Source: Pseudomonas sp. R76 (GTDB lineage Bacteria; Pseudomonadota; Gammaproteobacteria; Pseudomonadales; Pseudomonadaceae). From it: a stretch of 64,000 nucleotides of DNA. Positions 31,507-37,592 of the stretch are shown piece by piece; the first letter of the stretch is position 1, and every line of letters begins with the position of its first letter. Under the pieces are notes generated by a model, which had not been told where the DNA came from, searched no databases, and saw nothing but the letters and a program-made list of their open reading frames with translations. The stretch is taken from positions 1,798,001-1,862,000 of the forward strand of contig NZ_CP019428.1 in the NCBI RefSeq assembly GCF_009834565.1. The letters run 5' to 3'. Both the position numbers and the translations under genes were made by a program.

Positions 31507-32091
31507 ATGAATTATCTCGCACATCTGCACCTGGGCGGCCAACTTCCTGCGCAATTGCTGGGCAGCCTTTATGGCGACTTCGTCAAAGGCCGGCTGCAGG
31601 GCCAGTACAGCCCGCAAATCGAGTCGGCCATTCAGCTGCATCGCTCCATCGACCGTTTCACCGACAGCCACCCGTTGGTCGGCGAGGCGTTGTCACGCTT
31701 CAGCCTGACTCGCAAGCGCTACGCCGGGATTGTCCTCGATGTGTTTTTCGATCACTGCCTGGCGCGGGATTGGGCGCAGTATGCCGACCAGCCGCTGGAG
31801 CGTTTCACCGCCCAGGTATACCGCGTGCTGGCCGCCGAACCGCAGCTGCCGGAGCGGCTGGCGCAGATCGCGCCGTACATGGCGGCGGATGATTGGCTGG
31901 GTTCGTATCGTGAGTTCGCGGTGATGGAGCAGGTGTTGCGCGGGATTTCGCGGCGGCTGACGCAGCCTGAGGAATTAAGGCATGCGATGCAGGAGTTGCG
32001 GGTGTTGTATGAACCGCTGAGTGAAGATTTTCGGCTGTTCTACCCAGAGTTGCAGAAATTTGCACAGCTCCAACTGACAACTGAGATCTAA
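31507..32091 (+). CDS. acpH: Acyl-carrier-protein phosphodiesterase
   Basis: A 194-residue HD-like hydrolase that removes the 4'-phosphopantetheine arm from acyl carrier protein. MNYLAHLHL at the start, LLGSLYGDFVKG and the metal-binding pattern FFDHCLARDW are the AcpH/DUF479 hallmarks. Length matches E. coli AcpH (193). It is divergent from the ArsR operon and could be influenced by the same operator. A REPIN follows directly. Confidence 0.9.
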   Translation: MNYLAHLHLGGQLPAQLLGSLYGDFVKGRLQGQYSPQIESAIQLHRSIDRFTDSHPLVGEALSRFSLTRKRYAGIVLDVFFDHCLARDWAQYADQPLERFTAQVYRVLAAEPQLPERLAQIAPYMAADDWLGSYREFAVMEQVLRGISRRLTQPEELRHAMQELRVLYEPLSEDFRLFYPELQKFAQLQLTTEI

Positions 32092-32092
32092 C

Positions 32093-32180
32093 TGTGGGAG
32101 CTGGCTTGCCTGCGATAGCAGTCTGTCAGTTGAAGAGATGTGGCTGACCCACCGCTATCGCAGGCAAGCCAGCTCCCACA
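32093..32180. repeat. REPIN, GCTGGCTTGCCTGCGAT class
   Basis: TGTGGGAGCTGGCTTGCCTG and CAGGCAAGCCAGCTCCCACA at the two ends with GATAGCAG/CCGCTATC extension. It begins two bases past the acpH stop. Confidence 0.92.
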
Positions 32181-32203
32181 TTTGAACCGGTGTTCAGTTC
32201 ATC

Positions 32204-36536: not shown

Positions 36537-36827
36537 TTACTGCGGGGTTTGATTACCAGGCTGCAATGCCAGCAGCAGGTCATCAATGATGGCCTTACCC
36601 ATTTCTCCCAGGTAATGCGAGGCGAATGCAAACTTCTCCGCCTTGGGATCCATGGCGGCTTCAAGGGAGAGCATTTTTGCGTAATAGAGCACGTGGGATG
36701 CGTGTTCGAGGGCTTCTACGAGCGGAACCCCGGCGTTGACGCGGAACACTTTCAGATGGCTTTTGTTCTCTCCGCAGTCTGCGAAGGTGGCGGCGCCGAT
36801 GGTTTCGGCTGATGCTGCGTTAGTCAT
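36537..36827 (-). CDS. DUF3077-family protein
   Basis: A 96-residue acidic protein, MTNAASAETIGAATFADCGE at its start, with the VNAGVPLVEALEHASHVLYY helix and a second helix ending in DDLLLALQP. The pattern fits DUF3077, a small Pseudomonas-specific family of unknown function. ATG 36825-36827 is preferred because AAAGGA precedes it; an in-frame ATG eight codons upstream is less well placed. The mRNA leader is unusually structured (36856-36954) and suggests control by RNA folding. Confidence 0.78.
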   Translation of the reverse strand: MTNAASAETIGAATFADCGENKSHLKVFRVNAGVPLVEALEHASHVLYYAKMLSLEAAMDPKAEKFAFASHYLGEMGKAIIDDLLLALQPGNQTPQ

Positions 36828-36855
36828 AACTGATTCCTTTTGCATGAACAAAAAG

Positions 36856-36954
36856 AGCTGCCACTAACGTTTCCAGGCGAAGGGTGGCAACTGTACGCGG
36901 GCTGGAAACCGAGGCAAAAGGAACCCGGCAGACCCGAAGGTCTCCCACGTACAG
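36856..36954 (-). promoter_or_regulatory. Structured RNA leader with attenuator-like hairpin ahead of the DUF3077 gene
   Basis: Read on the minus strand, an 11-bp outer stem (36944-36954 with 36891-36901) closes two inner hairpins: AGACC-UUCG-GGUCU and CCGGG with CUCGG. A 9-bp hairpin follows (36884-36892 with 36856-36864), then CUUUUUG, 24 bases before the gene's start. Three of the four stems carry a single G-U pair on the minus strand that becomes a C-A mismatch on the plus strand, pointing to RNA made from the minus strand. The extended terminator stem shares two bases with the outer stem. Confidence 0.6.
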
Positions 36955-36973: not shown

Positions 36974-36996
36974 GCAGGCATAAAAAAAGCGCCTGC
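36974..36996. other. Short hairpin upstream of the leader
   Basis: GCAGGC and GCCTGC pair around an 11-base loop that includes seven A residues (U on the minus strand). It may be part of the same leader or a separate element. The rest of the 36997-37220 gap shows nothing else clear. Confidence 0.35.
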
Positions 36997-37220
36997 TGAT
37001 TGTTTGACGACGCTGTAGCGTCCTTAAGCATCGGGTTTCCAGGCCCGGTCACTGATGAGCAGCGACGGAGGCGAGGTTAACTCTATGCACGCGCCGTCGC
37101 AACCGGTGGCCAATAGCTGTCCGCAATCTGCGTTGTGTTTCCAGTGCGCGCCCCTGTAGTAACCTTGCCCGCAGCCGACCCCACTCACGTCGGCCGTTAA
37201 CAGGCATAGAAAGGAGACTT

Positions 37221-37592
37221 ATGACGCTGGGGCGCAAGGCCGAAAACTACTTCAGGATGATAAGAACGCGAATGGGCCTGGAGAAAAACTATTATTTAAA
37301 AAGCTTCGTTATTGCGCTGTTTATTTTTTGCATGAGCGTCTCCGTTTTTAAATCAAGCGATAAGGCCACCATCTATATCTTGATCTGCGGGGTTAATGCG
37401 CTGTTGTTCCCGCTGGCCAGGCGTGCAGTTGAAAACGTTGTCTTTCGTTTTACTGGAAAAGATTTTTGGGCGACACATCCCCTACGGGCCGCCGCATCTC
37501 ATGGTGGTCACGTACTGCTATGGATGTTTTATTTCGTTTTTGCCATTCCGCTTGGCGCCTTTTATGGACTGTGGTTGTGGCTGAAAAAATAG
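37221..37592 (+). CDS. Colicin E1-type (pore-forming bacteriocin) immunity protein, orphan
   Basis: A 123-residue inner-membrane protein with three hydrophobic segments (about 28-45, 50-65 and 98-117). It matches, from memory, colicin E1 immunity protein in layout and key residues: P-L-A-R-R-A-V-E-N followed by KDFW, and a last helix FAIPLGAFYGLWLWLKK against the known FxLAIPFGLLGLF type. Such proteins block the pore domain of one bacteriocin in the membrane. ATG 37221 has AAGGAG just upstream. No bacteriocin gene is nearby. It is more AT-rich and Lys/Phe-rich than its neighbours, which suggests transfer. Confidence 0.75.
   Translation: MTLGRKAENYFRMIRTRMGLEKNYYLKSFVIALFIFCMSVSVFKSSDKATIYILICGVNALLFPLARRAVENVVFRFTGKDFWATHPLRAAASHGGHVLLWMFYFVFAIPLGAFYGLWLWLKK

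Follow-up and report, generated by a model that had tools for sequence, protein, structure and literature searches.

The closest described system is the immI region (c4-icd-ant1) of phages P1 and P7. The GenBank record of P1 gives the order promoter P1c4, a1, b1, c4 (77 nt), a2, b2, icd, and ant1, where icd begins 50 nt after c4 and ant1 overlaps the end of icd by 4 nt. According to the notes in this record, C4 RNA represses icd-ant translation, and C4 and Icd are named as regulators of Ant in the accessible text of PMC8201110. In the satellite phage P4, the CI RNA pairs with sites on both sides of itself, which leads to early termination of transcription; in the IsrK/STnc1160 region of the Salmonella prophage Gifsy-1, the first RNA is followed by a terminator, a processed RNA lies further downstream, and the genes orf45 and anrP are AUGA-coupled (both in the available sections of PMC4825925). 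For A. baumannii, the accessible part of PMC5320573 reports 21 similar chromosomal C4-like sRNAs in one genome (Group 1), which have variable a' loops, are apparently processed at a GG motif, and for which co-option was proposed. A C4 family with many copies on one chromosome thus has a precedent. C4 and c4-a1b1 were listed as motifs of Proteobacteria and phages in 2010 (PMC2864571, as excerpted). In the searches made of open-licence PubMed Central papers, no Pseudomonas report was found of neighboring targets with matching, diverging codes or of a link to DUF3077 and DUF6124.

The locus studied here lies in Pseudomonas sp. R76, in a stretch of 64 kb that is called the window throughout. An initial annotation had described a structured leader at 36856..36954 on the minus strand, with the layout of a riboswitch or attenuator and no link to any named RNA family. 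A family can be named: in the Rfam search of the window, RF01695 (C4 antisense RNA) matches 36965-36880 on the minus strand with 74.7 bits (gathering score 45). This match settles the identity of the structured RNA as C4 antisense RNA. A closed two-hairpin junction upstream of an ORF does resemble a riboswitch or another ligand sensor; yet no riboswitch family matches, the loop varies among copies and fits its own target, and the sole other family over threshold in the window is PhrS, so that the chance of a ligand sensor is negligible. The assignment to C4 rules out a new RNA family as well. The PhrS small RNA (RF01673) is located at 1622-1839 on the plus strand (190.8 bits). Elsewhere in the window, a stretch of about 100 bp (32086-32195) matches several Pseudomonas loci, often on both strands, and is REP-like by appearance.

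The fold itself was confirmed. Between 36954 and 36856, the minus strand forms the outer stem, the cUUCGg hairpin, the second hairpin, and the further stem that had been described, followed by U5 at 36854-36850. Its minimum free energy of -44.4 kcal/mol (z -3.08) was equalled by 1 of 200 shuffles, while the plus strand folds more weakly (-38.6, z -2.34; equalled by 4 of 200), which agrees with the proposed direction. The feature is larger than had been delimited: the C4 match reaches beyond the fold, its outer stem extends to 36959, and the whole unit spans 37102 to 36537. Also, the gap between hairpin and ORF, given as 24 bases, amounts to 22 when counted from U5 to the ATG at 36827. Alignment to P1 c4 predicts a mature C4 of 77 nt (36959-36883).

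The initial annotation had proposed covariation as a check on the RNA, and the copies of the same genome provide it. The structure alignment comprises 36 R76 copies, a 37th below the cut-off being left out. Pairs form in 96.8% of cells and 12 of 26 base pairs show two-sided change; none of the five measures was reached by any of 500 shuffles, which ignore the kinship of the copies and address a structure that was itself derived from the C4 family. Slid structures pair in just 27-47% of cells. Three stems are present, the second of UUCG type, and the covariation is carried by the first and second (P1 and P2). Around the variable b' loop, the third stem (P3) lacks two-sided changes, and 89.4% of its cells are paired. 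GG at the position expected for an RNase P cut, as read from the sequence, is invariant in all 36 rows.

C4 is part of a cassette that runs on the minus strand from promoter-like sequence at 37102 to the end of an ORF at 36537. The P1 layout is present with a sigma70-like promoter, an a1 hairpin, C4, a2, b2, and the ORF; b1 alone is degenerate. The putative promoter is composed of a -35-like box TTGCGA (37097..37102) and, 17 nt after it, a -10-like box TAACCT (37074..37079). The pattern tested (TTG-N3, a spacing of 16-18, TA-N3-T) occurs in the leaders of 26 of the 37 R76 copies (300 shuffles: mean 2.5, maximum 8). Of 66 distinct C4-bearing DUF3077 loci, 52 have it (shuffles: mean 2.5, maximum 6). 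About 60 nt upstream of C4, a c4-a1b1-like leader (RF03163), consisting of the -10 region and two hairpins, matches 37028..37080 with 33.8 bits, i.e., below the gathering score of 46.7 and with an E-value of 5.9e-7 for 401 bases. The P1 piece scores 51.0 for this family and 68.8 for RF01695. Its RF03163 match (L180 3218-3270) starts one base before the annotated -10 box, and hence the model probably includes promoter DNA in its first columns; TAACCT of the R76 leader falls in these same columns, like the annotated -10 of P1c4.

The loop of the second leader hairpin is occupied by a1 (CCUGGAAAC). At 37035..37043, a1 reads CCTGGAAAC, contains the a2 sequence CTGGAAAC, and offers 8 nt complementary to a'. 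At the b1 position (37021..37027) AAGGA alone fits b' (5 nt, score 5.0); by eye, b1 is retained in other R76 copies, e.g., 909485, 1604986, and 5849353. Between a1 and C4, a T-run (36981..36990) takes the position of the isrK terminator and may end a short transcript. T-runs of at least 5 within 70 nt upstream of C4 occur in 19 of 37 R76 copies. The similarity of the R76 leader to isrK is weak (29.5 bits, cut-off 50).

Both variable parts of C4 find their complement just downstream, a feature which the initial annotation did not contain. The b' loop UUCCUUUUGC (36914..36923) is an exact 10-nt complement of b2 GCAAAAGGAA (36834..36843), which overlaps the Shine-Dalgarno-like AAGGA at a distance of six bases from the ATG; when the target region was shuffled 5000 times by mononucleotides, a run of 10 never occurred. 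On the junction strand, a' GUUUCCAG (36902..36909) is an exact 8-nt complement of a2 CUGGAAAC (36869..36876), 3 nt past the end of the C4 match, and a run of 8 was reached in 10 of 5000 shuffles. Of the initial reading, a minus-strand RNA that is a regulatory leader of the gene that follows is supported. This gene (36537..36827) encodes a DUF3077 protein of 96 aa (PF11275, 93 bits, cut-off 21), and neighboring genes encode a beta-lactamase-fold protein and an M20 peptidase, a setting that is matched in loci L071 and L074. Just past the cassette promoter, a divergent small protein is encoded at 37221-37592 on the plus strand, with a weak match to PF03526, colicin E1/microcin immunity (27 bits, cut-off 25).

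The locus thus resembles the P1/P7 region in its three-stem RNA, in the complementarity of a' and b' to a2 and b2, in the placement of b2 at the ribosome-binding site, and in the order promoter-a1-b1-C4-a2-b2-ORF, where most copies have some 50 nt between C4 and the ORF. Unlike the phage region, the window copy is situated among chromosomal genes, precedes DUF3077 rather than icd and ant, and has a degenerate b1; dozens of copies with differing codes are possible per genome. We consider it very probable that the cassette is a chromosomal, self-contained antisense silencing unit of the immI type, in which each C4 acts mainly on its own cassette. Anatomy and matching codes together strongly suggest the following mechanism. 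From one promoter, a leader with a1 (b1), C4, a2, and b2 would be transcribed together with the small gene, here DUF3077. C4 would be excised from this leader, presumably by RNase P. Its a' strand would then pair with a2 and its b' loop with b2, the Shine-Dalgarno region of the cassette's own gene, such that translation of the small gene would be blocked. Pairing with the upstream a1/b1 might in addition damp C4's own transcript. If a short a1 RNA is terminated at the T-run, it could act as a decoy; we mention this as a lead, because the short leader RNA IsrK of Gifsy-1 activates translation in trans (described in the available part of PMC4825925), and the R76 a1 leader is likened to it by layout. 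The likeness to P4 (seqA, CI, seqC) is similarly one of description rather than of sequence: an antisense RNA from its own leader, with sites upstream and downstream and with processing that we infer for C4. P4 CI, in the sections of the source available, works by premature termination.

A different reading would leave C4 unprocessed. The leader would act in cis as an attenuator, flipping to a hairpin between the 3' strand of C4, AGUUGCCAC (36892-36884), and a competitor strand GUGGCAGCU (36856..36864), which would end transcription or hide b2. The C4 fold and the competitor hairpin are mutually exclusive, the window copy carries its U5 directly after the competitor stem, and P1 has by eye a similar strand at the same place. 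The initial annotation had envisaged a switching terminator stem here, and its competition with the 3' strand of C4 stands; the competitor stem scores at least 6 in 30 of 37 copies. However, such a score is also reached in 791 of 1332 non-self pairs, the mean self pairing of 6.98 is barely above the non-self value of 6.54 (45 of 10000 permutations), and a T-rich tail is present in just 5 of 37 copies, so the U tract is not conserved. Intrinsic termination is consequently a single-copy feature at most. The invariant GG at the expected RNase P site and the precedents of P1 and Acinetobacter argue for a freed RNA, and we rate the attenuator as very unlikely.

The antisense cassette is one of many. 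The R76 genome has 37 C4 matches, 36 of them over the cut-off, scattered along the 6.8-Mb contig, and 33 a1b1 (RF03163) matches, 12 of them over the cut-off and 30 upstream of a C4; 14 well-known control genomes contain neither. An ORF of at least 60 aa follows 36 of the 37 copies. Setting aside the one copy without ORF and two with ORFs judged spurious leaves 34 cassettes, whose ORFs match DUF6124 in 23 cases, DUF3077 in 12 (some match both), and Bro-N in three (E up to 0.01). Viewed from the protein side, a comparison of match lists by hand gave 29 distinct DUF3077/DUF6124-type genes in R76, one of them below its cut-off. C4 is located just upstream of 24 of these or at the head of their operon, and in one further case a transposase-like ORF separates the gene from its C4. 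The remaining four have no C4, three of which (one by eye) retain an a1-like leader. Two arrangements deviate. In cassette 5559094 (L041 2761-3939) a 392-aa ORF, transposase-like by eye, lies between C4 and a DUF6124 gene, as if the cassette had been split by an insertion element. Locus L031 holds three successive C4 copies (2201331, 2201610, and 2201705), of which one scores below the Rfam cut-off; neither of the two upstream copies has a convincing ORF to itself.

Most of the R76 copies have recognition sequences that match their own target better than those of other copies. In exact runs of at least 7, a' matches its own a2 in 34 of 37 R76 copies compared to 91 of 1332 non-self pairs, and b' its own target window in 23 of 37 compared to 44 of 1332; neither self mean was reached in 20000 permutations. 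When G-U pairs and mismatches are allowed in the score, 28 of 37 self pairs and 11 of 1332 non-self pairs fit in both parts, all 37 copies being included and the thresholds having been picked after the scores were seen. The a1 and b1 regions, too, fit the a' and b' of their own cassette better than foreign ones (0 of 10000). Taken alone, the a part is not private: one a' core is common to four copies, and others to two to four. All these tests used windows fixed to the end of C4 that reach into the first codons, and a few best matches of b' fall there, e.g., in 4015925. The restriction of the comparison to the a and b regions improved the separation; with duplex energies over wide regions, self and non-self were poorly separated and the own target ranked first in 11 of 37 copies.

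Three further sets show an excess of self over non-self pairing. Among the best-scoring loci of the genus found by the RNA (29 minus one duplicate), both parts fit in 28 of 28 self pairs versus 104 of 756 non-self pairs, and among the IMG/VR loci (90 matches minus the five lowest-scoring and five duplicates) in 63 of 80 versus 164 of 6320. The weakest set is that of loci found by the DUF3077 protein (69 minus three duplicates) with 31 of 66 versus 140 of 4290. There, exact b' runs of at least 7 occur in 14 of 66 self and 98 of 4290 non-self pairs, and a' runs in 63 of 66 and 1166 of 4290, which reveals that a codes are widely shared. Thus, many copies of this set pair imperfectly, decay, or are not separated by a alone.

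How far codes diverge between neighbors is illustrated by the tandem pair 114031/114924 (L019 4001-5357). Its Bro-N ORFs are 98% identical (323 of 329 aligned nt), whereas identity drops to 63 of 82 positions between the C4s and to 33 of 44 between the target regions. The b' scores are 8.4 and 6.7 for the own target and 5.3 and 4.4 for the cross combination, while one a' cross score (7.6) exceeds the self score (7.0). The pair 4015138/4015925 has a common a' and different b' parts, and one cross b' score equals the self score; the separation is therefore incomplete. Since the a/b code differs between most of the approximately 34 cassettes, each C4 would act mainly on its own cassette.

The association of C4 with DUF3077 extends beyond R76. 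Protein relatives were collected from Pfam, PHROGs, tblastn, and fetched loci; in named Pseudomonas species, DUF3077 relatives are 90-97% identical. An alignment scan of genome contigs revealed 201 DUF3077 loci, the best 80 of which are all titled Pseudomonas. With a covariance model built from the R76 copies, same-strand C4 was identified at 69 of these best 80, upstream of the DUF3077 match in 68 and overlapping its first matched bases in one (L084). Among 21 C4-bearing loci inspected by eye, at least 10 carry at b2 a leader ORF that is about 20-27 codons long and ends in a stop overlapping the start of DUF3077 (ATGA), so that the DUF3077 gene is an ATGA-coupled second ORF like that of icd-ant1 in P1. 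In L100, L105, and L122, a stop codon lies inside the matched DUF3077 stretch. The protein itself is modeled with a two-helix hairpin (36-59, 64-88; mean pLDDT 78.5), for which a fold search returned no significant solved structure (best E 1.4). It matches phrog_36471, where no function is assigned (E 3.5e-15), and NCBIfam gave no match among nine proteins. In a furfural-tolerant evolved P. putida, a DUF3077 pseudogene was altered by an insertion, for which the accessible text of PMC9630843 gives no mechanism.

The remaining 11 of the best 80 loci have no C4 match, and together with the four R76 genes this indicates that C4 is not obligatory. This bears on a type I toxin-antitoxin-like unit, in which the small protein would be harmful and C4 its antitoxin, as could be suspected from icd of P1, a cell division inhibitor. 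The architecture is the same as that of P1 c4-icd, and the many scattered copies with mostly different codes would suit such units. But nine of the 11 loci without C4 (L073, L074, L076, L117, L129, L131, L134, L135, and L140) retain an a1-type leader, as judged by eye from the sequence, which speaks against an essential antitoxin. In L073 and L074, the match to the window breaks off at 36859 and resumes from 37031, with common breakpoints, and the DNA beside these two loci is 93% (L073) and 85-92% (L074) identical to the window neighborhood; thus, the DUF3077 gene has been kept without C4 in related species. In addition, PADLOC matches none of three proteins. On this evidence a toxin-antitoxin unit is unlikely.

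On the level of genomes, a C4 match is present in 137 of 149 members of the genus (R76 included), 136 of them over the cut-off, in a survey that scored up to 27 candidates per genome. Rescoring gave 30-47 copies in eight genomes chosen among those with at least 27 candidates in the genus survey, and 9 and 3 copies in two low-count genomes. In the sample of the class, C4 was found in 12 of 187 genomes, R76 being one of them, and the other 11 (of 186) hold 1-4 copies. C4-like DNA was also identified in 32 of 50,697 phage records, 31 of which are named Pseudomonas phages. It lies 50 nt upstream of the annotated anti-repressor Ant in PAShipCat1, and within annotated ORFs among regulatory genes in phiAH14b and U10. 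Neither DUF3077 (two queries) nor DUF6124 (one query) had a tblastn match in these phage records. In IMG/VR, 24 loci encode a DUF3077 relative, 18 of them with C4; several are close to the end of a contig and may represent host flank. A DUF3077 relative was found on one of 72,556 plasmids.

These phage occurrences invite the reading that the cassettes are relics, i.e., decaying immunity modules of prophages or satellites without present function. Three R76 cassettes encode Bro-N/anti-repressor-like proteins, and copies exist that have lost C4 or contain an internal transposase-like ORF. Against this stand the complementarity, which is maintained although a and b differ among copies, the 30-47 copies in the eight chosen genomes, and the absence of DUF3077 and DUF6124 from the phage records as queried. 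We regard relics without function as improbable, and the self-contained silencing cassette remains our preferred reading.

A more far-reaching idea is that Pseudomonas converted a phage immunity RNA into dozens of silencing units across the genome. These units would be nearly orthogonal, would use two-part codes that selection keeps apart, and would mostly serve one kind of small helical protein; the same RNAs may be an inherited immunity repertoire against phages or satellites that share their codes. We put this forward as a speculation that may well fail. One strict case speaks for an immunity repertoire: both parts of the target of the 10-kb phage vB_Pae_U10 (L303) are fitted by the C4 of R76 cassette 114031, and the phage's a' strand and b' core are those of this cassette (L019 4001-4088). 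From these sequences, cross-silencing would be predicted between the two. When 131 chromosomal C4s were compared more loosely with seven phage cassettes, 17, 10, 1, 0, 0, 10, and 5 of them fit (0 to 13%), which is no better than the background (non-self 0.8 to 14% in four sets).

If our interpretation holds, a single chromosome would contain about three dozen antisense RNA/target pairs of one design with diverged specificities. It would constitute a natural data set on the separation of RNA codes and a source of insulated regulators. The report on chromosomal C4-like RNAs in Acinetobacter, which in its accessible text leaves neighboring targets unnamed, would be extended: in R76 the targets are pointed out, the codes are self-matching, and the copy numbers are higher. 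DUF3077 and DUF6124 would share one mode of control and be linked to phage immunity, and the function of these proteins would become testable by removal of C4.
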